6,770 nt of DNA from Deltaproteobacteria bacterium (GTDB lineage Bacteria > Desulfobacterota > GWC2-55-46 > UBA9637), in assembly GCA_016234985.1 (NCBI GenBank), contig JACRNK010000171.1:1-6770 (forward strand), given 5' to 3'. This document shows positions 1 to 6,770 of the stretch, piece by piece. The position numbers were made by a program, and so were the translations under genes. Each line of letters opens with the position of its first letter. Within the stretch, counting starts at the first letter, position 1. A model generated the notes under the pieces. It had not been told where the DNA came from. It saw only the letters and a list, made by a program, of their open reading frames with translations, and did no database searches.

Positions 1-510
1 CAAGGCACAGTGCTTTTATATGTGAAGCAAGGCATTGAACCGCTGCCGCTAATTGACGGCGGAACCGCAGAGGACAATGATATGCTGGAAATCCCTGACA
101 GGCTTGAATCATGCACCATGAACACGCCCGGTATAGGAGGGCTTGGCGCGGGCATTGAATTTTTGTCGAAACAAGGCGTGGAAAAAATAAGGAGGCATGA
201 AGAGGGGCTTATAAGGCAGATATTAGATGGTTTGAAAAGAATAAATGGGATACAGATTATTGGCCCTTTGGATGAAAAGAAAAGGACATGTCTTGTTTCA
301 TTCAATATTGAGGGCAAAGAGCCTTCTGATATCGGGGACAGATTAGATAATGAATTCGGCATTATGCTTAGATGCGGCCTTCACTGCGCCCCTCACGCGC
401 ATAAGTCTGCCGGCACATACCCATCAGGCGCTGTTCGGGTAAGCCCCGGGTATTTTAATACCACAAAGGAGATTGAGGAGTTTTTAAGGGCAGTGAGGGA
501 GATATGTTAA
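1..510 (+). CDS. Cysteine desulfurase family protein (aminotransferase class V), C-terminal part, 5' end outside window
   Basis: The open frame runs from base 1 with no start in the window, so this is the last 169 residues of a protein usually about 380 long. It begins QGTVLLYVKQG, the strand that follows the PLP-lysine loop in this family, so the PLP lysine lies just outside the window. Visible family marks are NTPGIGGLGAGIEFL, the RCGLHCAPHAH loop with the candidate persulfide cysteine (fragment residue 129), GAVRVSPGYFNT, and an EIEEFL C-terminus. The HCAP loop and short tail resemble the EF2568-like branch of class V aminotransferases rather than classical IscS or NifS; that assignment is from memory of the family. 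The expected reaction is cysteine to alanine with sulfur held as enzyme persulfide, feeding Fe-S or tRNA sulfur pathways in the cytoplasm. Its stop overlaps the tsaD start (ATGTTAA), which suggests translational coupling. Confidence 0.88.
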   Translation, partial: QGTVLLYVKQGIEPLPLIDGGTAEDNDMLEIPDRLESCTMNTPGIGGLGAGIEFLSKQGVEKIRRHEEGLIRQILDGLKRINGIQIIGPLDEKKRTCLVSFNIEGKEPSDIGDRLDNEFGIMLRCGLHCAPHAHKSAGTYPSGAVRVSPGYFNTTKEIEEFLRAVREIC

Positions 511-1604
511 TCTTGGGCATTGAATCCTCATGCGATGATATGGCTGCTGCTGTGGTAAAAGACGGCAGGCATATCCTTTCAAATGTTGTGTCATCTCAGG
601 ATGCGATACATCACAAATACGGCGGCATTGTGCCGGAGCTTGCCTCAAGAAGACATCTGGAAACGGTTATCCCTGTTGTAGAAGAGGCATTACATCAGGC
701 AAAAATCACATTGGATGAGATAGATGCCATTGGCGTTACACAGGGGCCTGGATTAGTCGGCTCCATACTTGTGGGCCTCTCATTTGCAAAGGCTGTCAGC
801 TATGTAAAGGACATACCCTTTGTCGGAGTGAATCATATAACGGCACATCCCATGGCAGCGTTCTTGGAAAGGAAGTCAGAAGTCAGGAGTCAGGAGTCAG
901 GAGTAAATGCAAATACTCCGAACTCCGAACTCCCGACTCCGAACTTTCCTTTTATCGCCCTTGTCGTTTCCGGCGGCCACACTACTATTTTCAAATTCAA
1001 GGATTTTGATGATTATGAGATTTTGGGGCAAACCAGAGACGATGCGGCAGGCGAGGCGTTTGATAAGGTTGCAAAACTTCTGGGTCTCGGCTACCCGGGC
1101 GGCGCTGTAATAGACAGGCTTGCAAAAAAGGGGGACTCGTCTAAAATAGAATTTACGCGGCCATACATATCAAAGGATACCCTTGATTTCAGCTTCAGCG
1201 GCATAAAAACCGCGGTTTTAAGCTATATTAAGGAGATGAGAAAACTCAACCCTGAAGGGTTGAGTTACAAGGTAACTCAAGGCTTTAGCCTTGAAAAATC
1301 AACGATGGTAAACGACCTTGCTGCGAGTTTTCAGGAGGCGGTGGTTGATGTATTGACAGACAAGGCTGTTTCAGCATGTAAGGCTAATAACATAGACAGC
1401 CTGGTTGTTTCCGGCGGTGTTGCATGCAACAGCAGGCTGAGGGAAAAAATGCAAATCAAATCCAATGACAACGGCATAAAACTTTTTATCCCTGAACCAA
1501 GCCTATGCAGCGACAACGGCGCCATGATTGCGGCGGCAGCGTATCAGCTTTTAAAAAAGGGAAAGATGGGCGGGTTTGATATGAATGCGATACCAAGCAT
1601 GTAA
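504..1604 (+). CDS. tsaD: tRNA N6-adenosine threonylcarbamoyltransferase TsaD
   Basis: TsaD transfers threonylcarbamoyl from threonylcarbamoyl-AMP to A37 of ANN-decoding tRNAs, working with TsaB and TsaE in bacteria. Seen here: ESSCDD near the N-terminus, GGIVPELASRRH, TQGPGLVGS, metal ligands H111 and H115 (in NHITAH), VVSGGHT, DDAAGEAFDKVAKLLGLGYPGG, FSFSGIKTAV, VVSGGVACNSRLRE, and the SDNGAM metal aspartate at residue 337. At 366 residues it is about 30 longer than typical bacterial TsaD. The excess falls in two places: residues about 123-147 (between AAFLE and FPFIALVVSGGHT) and about 247-264 (between SYIKEMR and VNDLAASFQEAVVDVL). Both coincide with palindromic DNA, described as separate repeat features. 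The ATG overlaps the upstream stop by 7 bases and has a GAGGGA ribosome site at 495-500. The core motifs are complete, so the enzyme is probably active. Confidence 0.96.
   Translation: MLILGIESSCDDMAAAVVKDGRHILSNVVSSQDAIHHKYGGIVPELASRRHLETVIPVVEEALHQAKITLDEIDAIGVTQGPGLVGSILVGLSFAKAVSYVKDIPFVGVNHITAHPMAAFLERKSEVRSQESGVNANTPNSELPTPNFPFIALVVSGGHTTIFKFKDFDDYEILGQTRDDAAGEAFDKVAKLLGLGYPGGAVIDRLAKKGDSSKIEFTRPYISKDTLDFSFSGIKTAVLSYIKEMRKLNPEGLSYKVTQGFSLEKSTMVNDLAASFQEAVVDVLTDKAVSACKANNIDSLVVSGGVACNSRLREKMQIKSNDNGIKLFIPEPSLCSDNGAMIAAAAYQLLKKGKMGGFDMNAIPSM
868..953 (+). repeat. Heptamer-repeat palindromic element inside tsaD, in frame
   Basis: The left arm at 872-904 is a run of heptamers: GAAGTCA twice, GGAGTCA twice, then GGAGT. 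A 10-base loop follows (905-914). The right arm at 915-947 is ACTCCGA, ACTCCGA, ACTCCCG, ACTCCGA, ACTTT. Folding left on right gives 24 Watson-Crick pairs and one G-T out of 33 positions, mostly as GGAGT/ACTCC blocks separated by two-base mismatches. Short AAAGG and CCTTT flanks extend it weakly. Translation gives ERKSEVRSQESGVNA, then a proline-rich TPNSELPTPN stretch not expected in TsaD. Because the unit is 7 bases, each arm is read in all three frames. The plus orientation has no stop, while the reversed left arm (TGACTCC) would supply TGA. It is probably a copy of a dispersed genomic repeat; only this copy is visible. Confidence 0.85.
1243..1294 (+). repeat. Three overlapping perfect inverted repeats inside tsaD, in frame
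   Basis: Three perfect inverted repeats are packed into 52 bases. The first is 1243-1266, with 11-base arms (AACTCAACCCT / AGGGTTGAGTT) around GA. The second is 1260-1280, with 9-base arms (TTGAGTTAC / GTAACTCAA) around AAG. The third is 1277-1294, with 8-base arms (TCAAGGCT / AGCCTTGA) around TT. The middle one shares bases with both outer ones, so either the two outer hairpins form or the middle one does. AACTCAA occurs as a direct repeat at 1243 and 1274. The stretch encodes TsaD residues about 247-264 (LNPEGLSYKVTQGFSLE), where related proteins usually have a short linker. This supports a small palindromic insertion kept in frame. A role in mRNA folding is possible but not shown. Confidence 0.82.
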
Positions 1605-1607
1605 CCA

Positions 1608-2444
1608 ATGAAAAACATCCCTTCTCTACTCAAATCATACGGCTTCTCTCCCTTAAAAAAATTCAGCCAAAACTTCCTCACAGATGAACGGATTGCCGGA
1701 AAGATTGTTGATGCGCTTGAATTGACGGCAGACGATACGGTAATAGAAATAGGCCCTGGTCTCGGCATGCTGACAGAGCGGCTGTTGGACACAGGGGCAA
1801 AGGTTGTGGCAATAGAGATAGATAAGGGGTTTGCAGATATTCTTGATAAAAAATTCGGCAGCAGGGATAATTTTAAAAAAATAATATGTCAAGATGCGCT
1901 CAAGGTTTCATATACAGAGCTTTCAGCCGGATACGGCAAAAAATTTAAGGTGGTTTCCAATCTTCCGTATAACATCTCAACCCCCGTTATATTTAAACTC
2001 CTTGAGCAGAGGGAGGTATTCTCCACGCTTTTGCTTATGCTTCAAAAAGAGGTGGCTCAGAGGATTGTTTCTCAGCCGGATACGAAAGAGTATGGTGTCT
2101 TGTCTGTATTTGTTCAACTCCTTGCGGATGTGCAGATTGAGTTTGATGTGCCGCCGTCCTGTTTTTATCCTGCACCCAAGGTGTATTCGTCTGTTGTGCG
2201 GTTTGATATGCTTGACGAGCCGAGGATTAAAACGGATGATATTGCTTTTTTCAAAAAGGTTGTCAAGGCTTCTTTCGGGCAAAGGAGAAAGACTCTGTTT
2301 AACGCCTTAAAGGCATTAAAACTGCCTGTTTTGCAAATCAGAAGCGCGCTTGAATTATCCGGCATAAACCCGCAGAGGCGAGGGGAGACGCTTACCCTTG
2401 AGGAGTTTGGCATATTAAGCAATGAGTTGAATAAAATAGTATAA
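1608..2444 (+). CDS. rsmA: 16S rRNA (adenine1518-N6/adenine1519-N6)-dimethyltransferase RsmA (KsgA)
   Basis: RsmA dimethylates two adjacent adenines in the helix 45 loop of 16S rRNA using S-adenosylmethionine, late in small-subunit assembly. Its loss gives kasugamycin resistance in many bacteria. Motifs seen: KFSQNFLTDERIAGKIVD at about 18-35; the SAM-binding EIGPGLGML at 47-55; the acidic end of strand 2, VVAIEIDKG, at 66-74; the catalytic motif IV NLPYNIS at 118-124; PPSCFYPAPKV at 182-192; QRRKTL at 225-230; and the C-terminal helical domain with NPQRRGETLTLEEF. The length of 278 residues is normal. The ATG lies 3 bases after the tsaD stop with no strong ribosome site in front, so translation probably depends on coupling to tsaD. 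Nothing in the sequence looks damaged. Confidence 0.97.
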   Translation: MKNIPSLLKSYGFSPLKKFSQNFLTDERIAGKIVDALELTADDTVIEIGPGLGMLTERLLDTGAKVVAIEIDKGFADILDKKFGSRDNFKKIICQDALKVSYTELSAGYGKKFKVVSNLPYNISTPVIFKLLEQREVFSTLLLMLQKEVAQRIVSQPDTKEYGVLSVFVQLLADVQIEFDVPPSCFYPAPKVYSSVVRFDMLDEPRIKTDDIAFFKKVVKASFGQRRKTLFNALKALKLPVLQIRSALELSGINPQRRGETLTLEEFGILSNELNKIV

Positions 2445-2467
2445 CATCTTTAAAACAAAAACATTTT

Positions 2468-2473
2468 AAGGAG
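2468..2473 (+). promoter_or_regulatory. Ribosome binding site of cutA
   Basis: AAGGAG lies 6 bases before the ATG at 2480, inside the 35-base AT-rich gap after rsmA. The gap holds no recognisable terminator or promoter, so read-through from rsmA is likely. Confidence 0.7.
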
Positions 2474-2479
2474 ATTGTT

Positions 2480-2800
2480 ATGAAAAAATATATCCTTGTT
2501 TTGATTACCGCAAGCTCTTTGCAAGAAGGGGAAAAGATAGGCAGCACACTTGTGAAAGAAGGGCTGGCAGCGTGCTGCAATATCATCCCTGAGATAAAAT
2601 CCATCTTTAAATGGAAGGGGAAGCTTTGCAAAGAAAAAGAGGTTCTTCTGCTGGTAAAAAGCAAGACAGCTCTGTTTAAAAAATTGAAGGATAGGGTCAG
2701 GAAACTCCACAGTTATGAAACGCCTGAGATTATAGCCTTTCCCATAGAAGCAGGTCTTAAGGATTATTTTAAGTGGATAGATGAGGTTTTAAAGGCGTGA
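2480..2800 (+). CDS. cutA: Divalent-cation tolerance protein CutA
   Basis: CutA is a small cytoplasmic trimer with a ferredoxin-like fold, related in shape to PII signalling proteins. It was named for copper tolerance in E. coli, but its general role is unsettled. Family marks over 106 residues: ILVLITASSLQEGEKIGSTLVKEGLAACCNIIPEIKSIFKWKGK at the N-terminal half, EVLLLVKSK at 54-62, and the signature LHSYETPEIIAFPIEAG at 76-92, ending with YFKWIDEVL. A second cysteine follows the usual one in AACCN, giving a CC pair at residues 32-33. Length is typical and the start is fixed by a good ribosome site. The stop region overlaps a possible GTG start of the following glycosyltransferase, so the two genes are likely cotranslated. 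Confidence 0.95.
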   Translation: MKKYILVLITASSLQEGEKIGSTLVKEGLAACCNIIPEIKSIFKWKGKLCKEKEVLLLVKSKTALFKKLKDRVRKLHSYETPEIIAFPIEAGLKDYFKWIDEVLKA

Positions 2801-2802
2801 AT

Positions 2803-3489
2803 ATGTCCATCTTCTCTGTTGTAATCCCGACCTTGAATGAGGAATCCGCTCTTGAGGGCGCCTTAAAGTCAATCGGCCAAGACACGGAGATTATTGTTGT
2901 GGATGCAGGAAGCAATGATTCCACAATCAAAATAGCCGGAAAATTCACAGAAAGGGTTATCCTGTCAGAGAAGGGAAGAGGCTCTCAGATGGATAACGGG
3001 GCAAGAATTGCGACAGGCGATACATTCCTTTTTCTTCATGCAGACACAAGGCTTCCGGATGACTGGAGGGAAAAAGTTGCAGAGGCGCTAAAAGATGCTA
3101 AAGTTGTTGGGGGAGGGTTTAGGCTTAGAATCGACTCCAAGAGATTTCCTTTTCGTATTATAGAAGCTATGGTTAATCTTCGGTCAAGATACCTTGGGCT
3201 TGTTTACGGGGACCAGGCTATATTTGTCAAAAAACAGGCTTTCCTGCAAGTCGGCGGATTTAAAGGACTTCCTTTGATGGAAGATGTGGACTTAACGGGA
3301 AGGCTTAAAAAACAAGGTCGGGTTGTTTTGCTGGATGCGGAGGTCATCACCTCTCCAAGGCAGTGGGAGAGGAAAGGTGTCTTAAGAACAACATTAAGAA
3401 ACTGGCTCTTTTTGAGCCTTTATTATCTTGGCGTCTCGCCGGAAAGATTATATAAAAAGTGTTATGCGTCCAATAAAAAAGACCCTTGA
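2803..3489 (+). CDS. Family 2 glycosyltransferase, TIGR04283-like (arsenosugar-biosynthesis-type)
   Basis: This is a GT-A fold glycosyltransferase of 228 residues with no membrane segments. Seen: the N-terminal nucleotide-sugar strand FSVVIPTLNEE at 4-14, IIVVDAGSNDST at 30-41, the subfamily-like EKGRGSQMDNGARIATGD at 56-73, FLHADTRLP at 77-85 (the metal-binding DxD region), VYGDQAIFVKK at 134-144, and MEDVDLTGRLKK at 159-170 with the probable catalytic acid. The RG-x-QM-x-x-GA and FLHADTRLP blocks are what I recall for TIGR04283, a family named for an arsenosugar link. The usual TIGR04282 partner is not in the window, so the substrate is unknown. I chose the ATG at 2803 because AAAGG at 2791-2795 sits 7 bases before it. 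A GTG at 2797, overlapping the cutA stop, would add two residues. The 3' end overlaps the next gene. Confidence 0.88.
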   Translation: MSIFSVVIPTLNEESALEGALKSIGQDTEIIVVDAGSNDSTIKIAGKFTERVILSEKGRGSQMDNGARIATGDTFLFLHADTRLPDDWREKVAEALKDAKVVGGGFRLRIDSKRFPFRIIEAMVNLRSRYLGLVYGDQAIFVKKQAFLQVGGFKGLPLMEDVDLTGRLKKQGRVVLLDAEVITSPRQWERKGVLRTTLRNWLFLSLYYLGVSPERLYKKCYASNKKDP

Positions 3490-3802
3490 AAAAAGGCGGT
3501 GCGGCTGTTATAGTTTCAGAAGCTATATTGAAGAAATAAGACACAGGATTCTTCCAATCCTGCAACGTTATGAAGTTAAAAGAGCAGGCCTGTTTGGTTC
3601 ATGTGTCAGGGGAAAAATGAAAGCTGACAGTGATATTGATATCCTGGTGGAAATTGGAAAGGATATCAGCCTGCTTGATTTTGTGGGGTTCAAGTTAGAG
3701 CTTGAGGAGGTATTGAAAAATAAAGTAGATCTTGTGGAATACAAAACTATCAAGCCTCTTCTTAAGGAAACTATTTTAAAAGAACAGGTAATGATTCTAT
3801 GA
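3464..3802 (+). CDS. Minimal nucleotidyltransferase, MntA-type antitoxin of a HEPN/MNT pair
   Basis: The protein has the minimal nucleotidyltransferase core. GS at 45-46 is followed by ten residues and then D57-x-D59 (SDIDILVE), and a third acid is present at D89 in KVDLVE. This matches the GSx10DxD pattern of MNT proteins that AMPylate and neutralise a partner HEPN toxin. The active site looks complete. I chose the ATG at 3464, giving 112 residues and a 26-base overlap with the glycosyltransferase gene. A TTG at 3428 would add 12 more residues, and no standard start lies further downstream before the conserved core. The first 20 or so residues (basic, with a C-G-C) are unlike the usual short lead-in to this domain, and the ribosome site is weak. 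The start could therefore be recycled from glycosyltransferase sequence. The stop overlaps the HEPN start as ATGA. Confidence 0.87.
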
Positions 3803-4152
3803 AGCGGGACATGAGGCTGTATATTGAGGATATTTCGGAATGTATTGCAAGGATAGAAGAGTATACAAAGGAGATTACTGAAAAAGATTTCTATAAAAAT
3901 ACTCAGATTCAAGATGCAGTTTTAAGACGTTTTGAAATTATAGGCGAGGCTGTAAAAAATATTCCTCAAGATTTTAGAGATAAATACCATGACATACCCT
4001 GGAAGAAAATCGCAGGAATGAGGGATATTCTTATACATGAATACTCTGGAGTGAGTCTGGAACGAACATGGAAGGTTGTTAAGGAAGACCTCTTTGTTCT
4101 TAGGGATAAGATATTAAAAATAAGGAAAGATTTGGAGAAGACGACAGAGTAA
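3799..4152 (+). CDS. HEPN-domain RNase toxin, HepT-like (DUF86)
   Basis: This 117-residue, mostly helical protein follows the MNT gene with a 4-base ATGA overlap, the standard layout of HepT/MntA modules. The signature is RDILIHEY: R75, four residues, H80, one residue, Y82. It matches the RX4HXY motif, in which the arginine and histidine serve RNA cleavage and the tyrosine is the residue modified by the partner MNT enzyme in characterised systems. Flanking conservation includes [17 protein letters not shown] at 40-56, [10 protein letters not shown] at 66-75 and a tryptophan at 91. All key residues are present, so it is likely an active toxin or cleaving RNase. Whether it acts in cell stress or phage defence cannot be told from sequence. 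Confidence 0.92.
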
Positions 4153-4165
4153 ATATCTATTTGAC

Positions 4166-4171
4166 AGGAGG
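4166..4171 (+). promoter_or_regulatory. Strong ribosome binding site that fixes the aldolase start
   Basis: A full AGGAGG lies 7 bases before the ATG at 4179. An upstream TTG at 4161 would precede this site, so the ATG is the better start. It is the strongest ribosome site in the window and suggests high expression of this gene relative to its neighbours. Confidence 0.8.
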
Positions 4172-4178
4172 TTCGACT

Positions 4179-5624
4179 ATGGAGTTTAAAAAATCAGTTT
4201 CGGATATTCACGACTGCCTGAAAGGCATTATAAAAATAGAAAAAGACAAAGTAGCGGTGCAGGATGAAAAGAGACTGAGAGCGGCGGTTGACGGGCTTGT
4301 CTATAACGCTGTATTTAACTCCGACAAAGAGATAAAGGCCAATTGCAGATGGATTATCAAATCTGCCGCTTCGTCTATGGGCATACAATCTGCGTCAATT
4401 CAGGGGCTTTATGAGGCTATGGGGAGGGGAGATGTCCGCGGCTTTACAGTGCCTGCTGTGAATATTAGAGGCCTTGCCTATGATACTGCAAGGGCATTAT
4501 TCCGGTCAGCCTTGAAAAATAAGGCAGGCGCATTTATCTTTGAGATAGCCAAAAGCGAGATGGGTTATACAGACCAGAGCCCTTATGAATATGCAACGGT
4601 TATTATTGCCGCTGCATTGAGAGAGGGTTACAAAGGGCCTTTATTTATTCAGGGAGACCACTTCCAGATAAACCCAAAAAGTTACGCGCAGGATAAGGAA
4701 AAAGAAATTAACGGATTAAAAGACTTGATAACAAAGGCAGTTAATGCCGGTTTTTACAATATAGATATTGATTCGTCAACTATCGTGGATTTAAGCAAGC
4801 CGAATGTTGTGGATGAGCAACGGCCTAATTTTGAGGTTACGGCGCAGCTTACGGAATTTATAAGGGATATTGAGCCGGACGGCATTACCATATCCATCGG
4901 CGGCGAGATAGGCGAGGTTGGCGGAAAGAATTCCACTGAAGAGGATTTAAGTGTATTTATGGACAACTATCTTGCAACCCTTGTTAGAATGGGCAACAAC
5001 ATGAAGGGCATAAGCAAGATGAGCATCCAGACCGGCACAAGCCACGGCGGCGTTGTTTTGCCGGACGGCACAATCGCAAAGGTCAAGGTGGATTTTGACA
5101 CCATTGAAAAACTTTCCAATCTGGCGCGCAAGGCTTATGGTCTTGCAGGCGTTGTGCAGCACGGCGCATCAACGCTTCCCGACGACGCCTTTGACCTGTT
5201 TCAGAAAAGAGGCGCGGCAGAGGTTCATCTGGCAACAGGATTTCAGAATATGCTCTATGACAGCAAATATCTTCCTGAAAATCTCAAGCAGGAGATTTAC
5301 AAATATCTGCATGAGAACATGGCAAAGGAGAAAAAAGAAGGGGAGACGGATGAGCAGTTTATATACAAGACAAGAAAAAAGGGATTAGGCCCGTTCAAAG
5401 AAAAATTCTGGAATCTGCCTGCGTCTGCCAAAGATGCGATTGGAAAAGAACTTGAGCAGAGGTTTGACTTGTTGTTCGGCAAATTGAAGGCCGTTAACAC
5501 ATACGATATCGCCGCAAAATGGGCGAATCCGGTAAATATTCCGTTAAAACTTGAAAACGATATGGCAGGGGTTGCCTCAGAAGGCAAAAAGGTAAAACAG
5601 GAAAAAGGGGACAGGGGGGAATAA
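4179..5624 (+). CDS. Class II (metal-dependent) fructose-bisphosphate aldolase-like protein, long form
   Basis: The protein has 481 residues against about 280-360 for usual class II aldolases. After an N-terminal helical region (1-75) unlike the family core comes the barrel: MGRGDVRGFTVPAVNIRG at 81-98, FIQGDHFQ at 156-163 with catalytic D160 and zinc ligand H161, ISIGGEIGEVGG at 238-249, TSHGG with H289, and VVQHGAST with H328. The spacings H161-H289 and H289-H328 parallel H110-H226-H264 of E. coli FbaA, so the zinc site looks complete. The next block, normally N-x-D-T-D in FBP aldolases or N-V-A-T in tagatose-bisphosphate enzymes, reads EVHLATGF at 348-355. The usual asparagine is thus histidine. 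A charged C-terminal region (about 365-481) is also extra. It probably cleaves or condenses a ketose phosphate with DHAP or a similar compound; the true substrate is open. Confidence 0.85.
   Translation: MEFKKSVSDIHDCLKGIIKIEKDKVAVQDEKRLRAAVDGLVYNAVFNSDKEIKANCRWIIKSAASSMGIQSASIQGLYEAMGRGDVRGFTVPAVNIRGLAYDTARALFRSALKNKAGAFIFEIAKSEMGYTDQSPYEYATVIIAAALREGYKGPLFIQGDHFQINPKSYAQDKEKEINGLKDLITKAVNAGFYNIDIDSSTIVDLSKPNVVDEQRPNFEVTAQLTEFIRDIEPDGITISIGGEIGEVGGKNSTEEDLSVFMDNYLATLVRMGNNMKGISKMSIQTGTSHGGVVLPDGTIAKVKVDFDTIEKLSNLARKAYGLAGVVQHGASTLPDDAFDLFQKRGAAEVHLATGFQNMLYDSKYLPENLKQEIYKYLHENMAKEKKEGETDEQFIYKTRKKGLGPFKEKFWNLPASAKDAIGKELEQRFDLLFGKLKAVNTYDIAAKWANPVNIPLKLENDMAGVASEGKKVKQEKGDRGE
5613..5620 (+). 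promoter_or_regulatory. G-rich ribosome binding site of the cytochrome b561 gene
   Basis: AGGGGGGA lies 5 bases before the ATG at 5626, within the last codons of the aldolase gene. The two genes are separated by one base, so they are probably cotranscribed and translationally linked. Confidence 0.6.
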
Positions 5625-5625
5625 T

Positions 5626-6291
5626 ATGGAAAACCAGGAAGATTACAAGGCGGTAAAGATTTGGGACTGGCAGACAAGGATACTGCACTGGTTGAATGCG
5701 CTTCTTATTATTACCCTTGCAATCCTTGCCTTGAGTTTTGAAATAACAGAAGAACTCAACATGCCGAAACAGGGCAGGGAGGTTCTCAAAGAGACGCACG
5801 GCATAATAGGTTATTTTTTTATTGCAACCTTTGTCTTGAGGATTATATGGGGGTTTATCGGAAATGAATATGCAAAATGGCGGGATATAATTCCATTTAC
5901 AAAAGAAAAATGGCAGGCCATAGGCGCTAACATTAAGTGGTATTTGAGCGGTTTCAGGACAAAACCCCCTGTTGCGCTCGGCCATAATCCGCTTGCCTCG
6001 CTTTTTTATATGCCGCTCTTTATTGTTTTAATCAGCCAGGCTATTACAGGCCTTATGCTTGCCGGCCTTGCATTTAATTTTTTCCCGGGTTCTTTGTTTT
6101 TTGGAGGGTGGGGTGAGGCGGCAAAAGAATCCTTAGAGGATATTCTTAAAGCGGTTCATGAATTGGGCTTCTTTTTCATCATATTCTTTTTTATCGCGCA
6201 TATAGGCGGCTTGATTGTTCATGAGATAGGCGAAAAGACCGGGCTTTTTTCTTCAATGATACATGGAAGAAAATATCTGCCAAAGGAATAG
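5626..6291 (+). CDS. Cytochrome b561 / Ni,Fe-hydrogenase-type b-type cytochrome, membrane subunit
   Basis: This is a four-helix integral membrane dihaem cytochrome b of 221 residues. The N-terminus KIWDWQTRILHWLNALLI is the family lead-in. Predicted helices lie at about 22-40, 58-79, 124-147 and 178-199. Histidines placed as haem ligands are H21 (start of helix 1), H58 (ETHGIIGY, helix 2), and H178 and H192 (helix 4, AVHELGFF and AHIGGLIVHE). GHNPLASL at 119-126 is another strong family block before helix 3. Such proteins pass electrons between quinone and a periplasmic partner such as a c-type cytochrome or hydrogenase. No partner subunit is present downstream, because the next gene is on the other strand. 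The upstream aldolase has no obvious link to electron transfer, so its partner must be elsewhere or supplied in trans. Confidence 0.92.
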   Translation: MENQEDYKAVKIWDWQTRILHWLNALLIITLAILALSFEITEELNMPKQGREVLKETHGIIGYFFIATFVLRIIWGFIGNEYAKWRDIIPFTKEKWQAIGANIKWYLSGFRTKPPVALGHNPLASLFYMPLFIVLISQAITGLMLAGLAFNFFPGSLFFGGWGEAAKESLEDILKAVHELGFFFIIFFFIAHIGGLIVHEIGEKTGLFSSMIHGRKYLPKE

Positions 6292-6299
6292 CGGGCTGT

Positions 6300-6770
6300 C
6301 TACTTTTCCTTTTTGGGTATTGTAAATCTAAAAGTCGTCCCCTTTCCCAGTTCGCTTTCCAAAAAGATATTGCCTCCGTGCCTCTCTATAATATATTTTG
6401 CCAGCGCAAGGCCGAGGCCTGTGCCTTTTGTGGTTTTAAGCACATTGCCTGCCCTGAAAAACTCCTCAAAGATATGCGGCGTATCCTCAGGCGGTATGCC
6501 GATTCCTGTGTCTTTTACCTCAACAACAACTCCTTTCGCATCTTTGAAAACCTTTACTTCGACTATTCCGCCCGACGACGTGTATTTGAAGGCATTGGCA
6601 ATGAGATTGGCAAAGACATGGATTATCAGTTCCTTATCCGCTTCAATTTCCAATGCCTCAACATCAACCGCAACCTTTAATTCTATCTGTTTTTCTTCTA
6701 TTTTCGGCAGCGCTATTTCAGCGGCAGTATATATCAACTCTTTGATATTAACTCTCTGAATATTAAGATT
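6300..6770 (-). CDS. Sensor histidine kinase, C-terminal catalytic part, 5' end outside window
   Basis: The open frame on the minus strand continues to the right edge, giving the last 156 residues. It holds the linker after the dimerisation domain (VNIKELIYTAAEIALPK) and then a complete HATPase_c domain. The N box is FANLIANAFKYT at 53-64, the G1 box VKDTGIGIP at 85-93, the F box IFEEFFRAG at 100-108, and the G2 box GTGLGLALAKYIIERHGG at 116-133. The protein ends with TTFRFTIPKKEK. The histidine box and any sensor domains lie off the window, so the signal is unknown. It would phosphorylate a response regulator that is probably encoded upstream of it, to the right. The gene is convergent with the cytochrome gene, with 8 bases between the two stop codons and no hairpin terminator in the gap. 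Confidence 0.95.
   Translation of the reverse strand, partial: NLNIQRVNIKELIYTAAEIALPKIEEKQIELKVAVDVEALEIEADKELIIHVFANLIANAFKYTSSGGIVEVKVFKDAKGVVVEVKDTGIGIPPEDTPHIFEEFFRAGNVLKTTKGTGLGLALAKYIIERHGGNIFLESELGKGTTFRFTIPKKEK

Follow-up and report, generated by a model that had tools for sequence, protein, structure and literature searches.

Near-identical TsaD proteins of related strains carry unrelated inserts in a loop that holds an in-frame heptamer palindrome

The stretch of DNA analyzed here, which we refer to as the window, comprises 6,770 nucleotides (nt) from a Deltaproteobacteria bacterium (Desulfobacterota; GWC2-55-46; UBA9637; contig JACRNK010000171.1, positions 1 to 6,770) and is contig C140 of a fragmented genome, G000 (1.49 Mb in 281 contigs, 63% complete). 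Its forward strand carries tsaD (positions 504 to 1604), which encodes a 366-residue subunit of the tRNA A37 threonylcarbamoyltransferase; the gene matched NCBIfam model TIGR03723 at 413.7 bits (cut-off, 296.1) and also matched Pfam PF00814. Within this gene and on the same strand lies a palindrome of 76 nt, arms and loop together. The left arm (872 to 904) is an array of GGAGTCA/GAAGTCA heptamers, the 10-base hairpin loop AAATGCAAAT occupies positions 905 to 914, and the right arm (915 to 947) is an array of ACTCCGA-type heptamers that pairs with the left arm at 24 of 33 positions. The codons for H111 to H115 (834 to 848), placed by alignment of 21 sequences, are directly upstream of the insert and outside it. 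The slot that holds the palindrome is loop 1 of TsaD (residues 121 to 147; positions 864 to 944), which was delimited by alignment, by comparison of strains, and by the predicted local distance difference test (pLDDT). The strongest result of this analysis is that near-identical TsaD proteins of related strains hold unrelated inserts in loop 1.

Tandem Repeats Finder (TRF) called 4.4 copies of AGTCAGG at 874 to 904 and 4.4 copies of ACTCCGA at 915 to 945. As RNA, the palindrome folds at −39.9 kcal/mol (z = −7.4); 200 shuffles that kept the dinucleotide content averaged −18.1 ± 3.0, and not one reached so low a value. A blastn search of its own genome returned 34 matches to the palindrome (self counted); GGAGTCAGGAGTCA, with up to two mismatches, occurred 59 times in that genome versus 6 for a reversed control, and ACTCCGAACTCCGA occurred 102 times versus 15. 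The fold shuffles and the genome counts of these two sequences rule out a chance palindrome. An Rfam scan of the window gave no match at the gathering score. AlphaFold, applied to 21 TsaD sequences, assigned a pLDDT below 50 to residues 42 to 49, 125 to 140, 254 to 262, and 364 to 366; the second and third of these stretches fall in loop 1 and in a second loop, described below.

The original prediction, made from the letters of the window, had described a palindrome read in frame through tsaD, with the same 24 of 33 paired positions. A hand count on the sequence gave that figure again, and the TIGR03723 match at 504 to 1604 places the palindrome inside the gene. It had also held that H111 and H115 were untouched, and both residues, which an alignment of 21 TsaD proteins shows to be unchanged throughout, are situated beyond the insert. 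Its estimate of about 20 added residues agrees with a comparison to the relative P0034, whose near-empty loop reads LDDNPPP. As an alternative it had named ordinary protein divergence, to be preferred if close relatives all shared the loop residues without the DNA repeat or if the genome lacked further copies. Many other copies occur elsewhere in the genome, and relatives lack the same loop residues.

To compare strains, we used the closest 49 of 120 listed TsaD relatives, the window protein included. Fifty-eight pairs had a core identity (outside the two loops) of at least 0.98; loop-1 identity was below 0.5 in 41 of these pairs and loop-2 identity in 10, and among 27 core windows that were sampled the lowest mean identity was 0.966. 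A single cluster of 15 proteins, with core identities from 0.962 to 1.0, supplied 55 of the 58 close pairs and 39 of the 41 swapped pairs. Elsewhere, two of three pairs were swapped (P0003-P0011 and P0036-P0039, with P0010-P0027 unswapped). Mean identity within the main cluster was 0.40 for loop 1 and 0.65 for loop 2, and its members carry six different loop-1 inserts, five of them with a run that can be decoded as heptamers. In the pair P0026 and P0030, all 300 compared core positions are the same and loop 2 is identical (1.00), whereas loop-1 identity is 0.16. Four of the six inserts recur in at least two listed entries or sources. The relative P0002 matches the window protein at 93% of the core and 96% of loop 2, and its loop 1 holds a TPPAPPLTKGGGGGVAPN insert with no heptamer hairpin. 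Peptides like TPPAPPLTKGGGGGVAPN also occupy loop 1 in P0020, P0021, P0023, P0032, P0042, P0047, and P0048. Among distinct peptides, a run of at least six residues decodable as one repeated heptamer was present in 18 of 37 from loop 1 and 13 of 36 from loop 2, versus 0 of 68 core windows. Literature searches limited to open-licence papers, and therefore a weak negative, turned up no account of coding palindromes being exchanged between strains.

The same slot is occupied across the host's order. Of the order's 11 genomes, 10 gave a tsaD match (one was without); these 10 represent six genera and two families, and loop 1 was long in every one of them. The units, read by eye, differed from species to species: GGAGTCA/ACTCCGA in G000, GGGATCA/CCCCCGA in G001, GGGAACA in G002, GAGTCAA/CTTGCCC in G003, GAGGTTA/CCTCAAA in G005, GGGTTCA/CAATCCA in G008, GAAGTCA/ACTCTAA in G009, and GATGCAA in G010, where a second palindrome is nested inside. 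Outside the order, loop 1 was short in 17 of 20 loci of the class that were fetched from among those matched (exceptions, L077, L094, and L098). It was also short (18 to 25 residues) in 53 of the 54 readable loci among 80 named ones (26 could not be read), the sole exception, L111, being G010 itself. Each species' two arms tended to match each other: own-arm pairing averaged 17.2, compared with 11.6 for arms combined across species, and none of 20,000 permutations did as well (p = 5e-5), although in only 5 of the 10 species did the own partner arm rank first among the ten. As a separate observation on G010, the double hairpin GTAGCCGC lies in frame within the tsaD heptamer insert (L079, about 1860 to 1960; L111, about 3360 to 3460), so that this insert is one palindrome family nested in another.

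TsaD has a second insert site, loop 2 (residues 244 to 270; positions 1233 to 1313 of the forward strand), which was placed by alignment and by comparing the window gene with ten relatives at the DNA level. In the window it contains, on the same strand, two adjacent small hairpins of a non-heptamer palindrome family (1246 to 1294; arms 1246 to 1268 and 1272 to 1294), recognized as an inverted repeat and by folding: the RNA fold of 1240 to 1300 is −25.4, versus −10.7 ± 2.9 for shuffles (z = −5.1). By eye, heptamer arrays occupy loop 2 in G001, G002, G003, and G006, and a short one does in G009; G005 has the perfect palindrome GGGGACAGATTTAAAATCTGTCCCC, G007 a hairpin partly common to the window, G008 an imperfect palindrome, and G010 little. 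The loop-2 arrays of G001 and G002 (loci L074 and L070) are orthologous, with a single-base change in almost all of their units (AAATCAA versus AAATCGA). The sequence GGGACAGATTT, which is half of the palindrome in loop 2 of G005, had 20 matches on both strands of a 314-kb sample of G009 (L231 to L250; a full palindrome counts twice).

In-frame inserts occur in conserved proteins besides TsaD, namely those encoded by miaB, cobU, a prmC-like gene, cobQ, leuS, bioA, and cbiD; some are single arrays, not hairpins. The window hairpin with its loop recurs at 81 to 86% identity in miaB of G000 (C211), cobU of G003, the prmC-like gene of G006, and a locus of G004, and an open frame of at least 207 amino acids runs through the match in 17 of 20 loci picked from the top of the match list. 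Matches to the window hairpin numbered 35 in G000, 6 in G001, 41 in G002, 29 in G003, 36 in G004, 35 in G005, 17 in G006, 21 in G007, 13 in G008, 41 in G009, and 4 in G010, these being lower bounds for genomes with more than 40 candidates at first look. A blastp census of the fetched sequences identified 59 arrays inside open reading frames (ORFs) with homologues on both sides. For two of the encoded proteins, one probably the electron transfer subunit of dihydroorotate dehydrogenase and the other an activase of the acyl-CoA dehydratase type, the array corresponds to a clean gap in a relative of the same class. In PrmC (8 of 11 genomes read) and LeuS (10 of 11), an array, a hairpin, or another palindrome lies at the same place, mostly with differing units (by eye). 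CbiD has arrays at four places in G000 and G001, and these loops vary among the nine species aligned (G002 and G004 were left out).

BioA served as a control. Its heptamer array is at one site in six of the eight species read, with about two units in G003 and none clear in G007 (by eye; G008 was left out). The units, also read by eye, are GGGGTCA in G001 and G009, GAAGTCA in G002 and G005, CTCCGAA in G006, and GGCAATA-like in G010; their sharing thus runs across genera and families, against kinship. Among 47 BioA proteins used (49 were looked at), the array site differed in 0 of 16 pairs at a core identity of 0.98 and in 11 of 47 pairs at 0.90. The length difference between P0136 and P0137 is exactly 7 residues, equivalent to three units (21 bases). 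Since none of the 16 close BioA pairs differed, compared with 41 of 58 for TsaD, BioA is slower to change and the TsaD loop is unusually unstable.

We also sought tandem arrays of periods 4 to 15 in samples (169 to 400 kb each) of five genomes: four of the order (G000, G001, G002, and G009) and one from another family of the same class (G018). Period-7 arrays of at least 28 nt numbered 32 in 277 kb of G001, 57 in 314 kb of G009, 63 in 310 kb of G002, and 35 in 169 kb of G000, a sample that was partly chosen for matches; none were found in 400 kb of G018. In the order's four samples, periods 4 to 6 gave 0 or 1 array and periods 8 to 11 gave 0 to 7, and codon-block shuffles gave no array at period 7. 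Periods 12 to 15 gave up to 18 arrays in the order, and G018 had 20 at period 12 and 25 at period 15, indicating that multiples of the codon and the double of seven also occur. With a laxer cut of 21 nt, the order's samples had 61, 62, 102, and 107 arrays, versus 6 in G018.

These arrays share a pitch and little sequence. The 332 arrays of the order's samples are spread over 166 distinct units (34 to 73 per genome sample), which rules out a single fixed repeat family. The composition of the units is nonetheless not random: the purine/pyrimidine order RRRRRYY occurred 76 times versus 36 expected and RRYRYRY 4 times versus 37 expected, and units common to two genomes exceeded random draws (16 versus 5.9 for G002 and G009). 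An adjacent inverted partner (at least 70%) accompanied 13 to 38% of arrays versus 1 to 6% under the null, so hairpins are enriched, yet most arrays are single. Strictly inside ORFs of at least 180 amino acids lay 141 of the 332 arrays (fractions of 0.36 to 0.50 per genome, versus 0.71 to 0.79 for random stretches); period-7 arrays are depleted in genes but common there. Among 61 hairpin loops, 75% had an A/T run of at least 4, compared with 30% of random genomic pieces and 46% of shuffled loops, which is too weak for a fixed loop motif to serve as the signature of an element, and no link was found in these loops between A/T runs and arm orientation. A different type of palindrome, C-rich and G-rich (CCCCTTT...AAAGGGG), was present in the samples of G000, G001, and G018 but absent from the G002 and G009 samples. 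Such palindromes could encode TPPAPPLTKGGGGGVAPN-like peptides, and the two may belong to the same family.

Two features of the original prediction did not survive this survey. It had taken the arms as a specific repeat family, and only the length of the unit proved to be fixed. It had also proposed selection on orientation, on the grounds that the reverse orientation would carry a stop. The premise is right, as GGAGTCA reversed reads TGACTCC. A stop triplet on exactly one strand is, however, a property of 168 of the 332 units, versus 155 expected for random heptamers, and a stop-bearing orientation would truncate the gene, so the stop-free orientation needs no special selection; we dropped orientation selection as a special feature. 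What stands of that earlier interpretation is an in-frame palindromic insert in a tolerant tsaD loop, with relatives elsewhere in the genome and unlike ordinary divergence of a protein. The differing contents of the slot, from species to species and even among strains whose TsaD is otherwise nearly the same, went beyond that interpretation, as seeing them takes sequences other than the window.

Arrays of this class extend beyond the order. A pattern for one branch of units, consisting of three tandem copies of RRRGTCA, matched 52 of the 297 genomes searched in the phylum; four drawn members of the order gave 16, 31, 61, and 20 matches, and eight other drawn members of the class gave none. Elsewhere in the phylum it is scattered, and G285, with 335 matches, is far above all the others of the 297. 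The reversed control gave 0 or 1 match in the order and most genomes (19 in G196 and 17 in G275). Period-7 arrays of various units also lie near tsaD in Methylomirabilota (L121 and L184), Pyrinomonadaceae (L178), Geobacter (L118), and Omnitrophota (L150, L151, L167, and L190). Their presence in the tsaD loci of other groups indicates that the array class is wider than this order.

Replacement of entire hairpins, at slots that have been filled for a long time, best explains why one site carries a different word in different species and strains. On balance, we think it probable that the TsaD loop, predicted to be disordered, is a long-lived slot at which one heptamer hairpin is exchanged wholesale for another, most likely through recombination within the genome. 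Other arrays and hairpins of that genome would act as donors. When present at the slot, a hairpin may stall or break replication and thereby invite exchange, and the inserts that survive would be those that are free of stops in the frames read and whose total length is a multiple of three. The insert itself would have no function in TsaD, and local homogenization and slippage by 21 bases would act as well. The fixed length of 7 most likely stems from whatever process generates the arrays, not from coding: a 7-base unit suits a reading frame poorly (its smallest frame-neutral step is three units, or 21 bases), and the period is the same inside and outside genes.

Several observations weigh against this explanation. 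Most of the swaps come from a single cluster of 15 proteins, and all are seen as protein only, with neither an exchange tract nor a donor seen in DNA, and the inserts of P0013 and P0015 are each known from one listed entry. The 18 decodable loop-1 peptides are the only ones of the 37 to read as heptamers, the others resembling different palindrome families (TPPAPPLLKGG type) or being short, and 4 of the 49 TsaD proteins (P0014, P0017, P0034, and P0036) have near-empty or short loops, with P0017, P0034, and P0036 being metagenome relatives whose loops are near-empty. In G008 the tsaD arms are unpaired (z = −1.4), and in G002, G003, and G009 the pairing is weak (z = 2.5, 1.9, and 2.0, respectively); genome-wide, most arrays have no inverted partner. 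Matches to the window hairpin are not centered on G000, so the window's own genome is not singled out as the donor. BioA arrays are unswapped between close strains, so exchange is not general. Finally, the unit change between the loop-2 arrays of G001 and G002 looks like local homogenization, a clear concerted change.

The main rival invokes small non-autonomous elements, resembling Rickettsia palindromic elements (RPEs) or miniature inverted-repeat transposable elements (MITEs) and moved by a transposase in trans, for which the TsaD loop would be a preferred target that empties and refills. We regard this as possible but doubtful. It accommodates the arm-level matches to the window hairpin in 11 of 11 genomes of the order, the composite copies, in which the two arms and the loop recur together, at unrelated loci of no fewer than four genomes (G000, G003, G004, and G006), near-empty sites such as that of P0034, and the use of one slot by several palindrome families; in-frame fusion is a known property of MITEs and RPEs (PMC2229807). 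Against it, 166 units among 332 arrays leave no conserved element sequence, the ends of the composite copies look non-uniform (by eye), and a fixed 7-base period with free sequence would go unexplained. Alternatively, one ancestral hairpin may have been acquired by the tsaD loop in the order's common ancestor, its units since rewritten in place by slippage, homogenization, and arm-to-arm templating with no donor. The occupied loop in 10 of 10 tsaD genes of the order, the similar loop cores of G000, G001, G002, and G009 (AAATG.AAAT; by eye), the same-base difference in nearly every unit of the orthologous G001/G002 loop-2 arrays, and the covariation of arms on average all fit such turnover, but we judge it improbable, since unrelated inserts in 41 of 58 near-identical pairs, and a non-heptamer loop 1 in a protein as close to the window as P0002, are too much change for gradual rewriting.

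Two further explanations have less to recommend them. An antagonist such as a phage protein or toxin might target the TsaD loop and favor variation, with hairpins as raw material. This would account for the swapping of loop 1 in TsaD when the BioA array, at equal divergence, stays unchanged, but many other housekeeping proteins hold the same kind of insert, and we know of no antagonist of this loop, although no search for one was made; diversifying selection seems very unlikely. Misassembly at repeats, or plain drift of a loop, is harder still to credit. Metagenome assemblies do misjoin at repeats, and P0021 looks chimeric by eye (its N-terminal half is like P0020 and its C-terminal half like L071). 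A misjoin would nevertheless hardly put new sequence between two flanks of one strain, the core is unchanged, and the recurrence of four of the six inserts in separate entries or sources speaks against an artifact. Returning to replacement of whole hairpins at the slot, a bolder version of it, which we consider rather unlikely, is that the order runs a hairpin exchange: some activity would write stem-loops with a 7-base pitch and nearly free sequence, and loops of TsaD, LeuS, PrmC, CbiD, and BioA would serve as cassette slots. If true, the cassettes would be swapped between and within strains with the frame unbroken, and the order would possess a generator of protein-loop diversity acting on essential enzymes and independent of any template gene or defined mobile element.

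Two other features of the window stand apart from these subjects. At 3428 to 4152, Pfam identifies a gene for a nucleotidyltransferase of the Pol-beta family followed by a HepT-like gene, with a 4-base overlap; the pair looks like an MNT/HEPN toxin-antitoxin system. At 6731 to 6766, TRF called a period-14 repeat (2.5 copies) in a histidine-kinase-like frame of the reverse strand; 14 is twice seven.

Heptamer repeats have long been noted in bacteria, with no accepted origin. The uncultivated lineage described here has dense, nearly sequence-free, often hairpin-forming heptamers inside housekeeping enzymes, against expectation, and sets of strains that differ almost solely in the insert make both the cause of the period of seven and the frame-keeping replacement directly testable. 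Such loops of conserved proteins would carry little phylogenetic signal and can mislead annotation.

The heptanucleotide repeats of cyanobacteria are known as STRR. The arrays described here resemble STRR-type heptamers (cyanobacteria, Xanthomonas, Nostoc, and Beggiatoaceae) in being tandem seven-base units, dispersed and in many copies; in the samples of four genomes of the order, period 7 stood alone among periods 4 to 11. An STRR hairpin in the RNase P RNA of Nostoc is said (Vioque 1997) to be a heptamer hairpin tolerated in an essential gene and variable among strains; that gene, unlike tsaD, encodes an RNA and has no reading frame to keep. The host here is not cyanobacterial, and its order relative L111, which carries the G010 insert, is recorded as a Deltaproteobacteria metagenome-assembled genome. 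Related units have been described in Xanthomonas (GGGAATC), Nostoc (GGGGA(C/T)T), and Beggiatoaceae (TAACTGA). The known heptamer repeats have one or a few units per genome and are under-represented in coding regions (Rehm 2015, PMC4692102), or else they lie for the most part between genes, where related heptamers are rare and those found within genes tend to be at the ends of the protein (MacGregor 2015, PMC4679880). Here, by contrast, each genome sample has 34 to 73 units, and arrays lie inside conserved domains of housekeeping enzymes. Geobacter metallireducens has heptanucleotide tandem repeats, some as inverted pairs, between and within genes (Aklujkar 2009, PMC2700814); in the part of that account we drew on, they fall into a few fixed sequence classes proposed to be regulator binding sites or RNA elements, and unit exchange at fixed coding sites is not described.

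RPEs, elements of 105 to 146 bp, are read in frame through conserved protein genes and also lie between genes (PMC2229807). The TsaD insert is likewise a palindrome read in frame through a conserved protein; unlike RPEs, it is 76 nt, has no fixed sequence and a heptamer architecture, and is swapped between near-identical strains, and its unit sequence changes from site to site and from strain to strain. A looser parallel is offered by nematomorph mitochondria, where inverted repeats are kept inside translated genes and both arms encode conserved residues (PMC6649704), whereas here the loop is non-conserved and the arms are arrays of seven. In the accounts consulted, we found no mention of free unit sequence, shared slots in housekeeping enzymes, or swapping among strains. 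We place inserts of the TsaD type in neither the heptamer-repeat family nor the RPE family.

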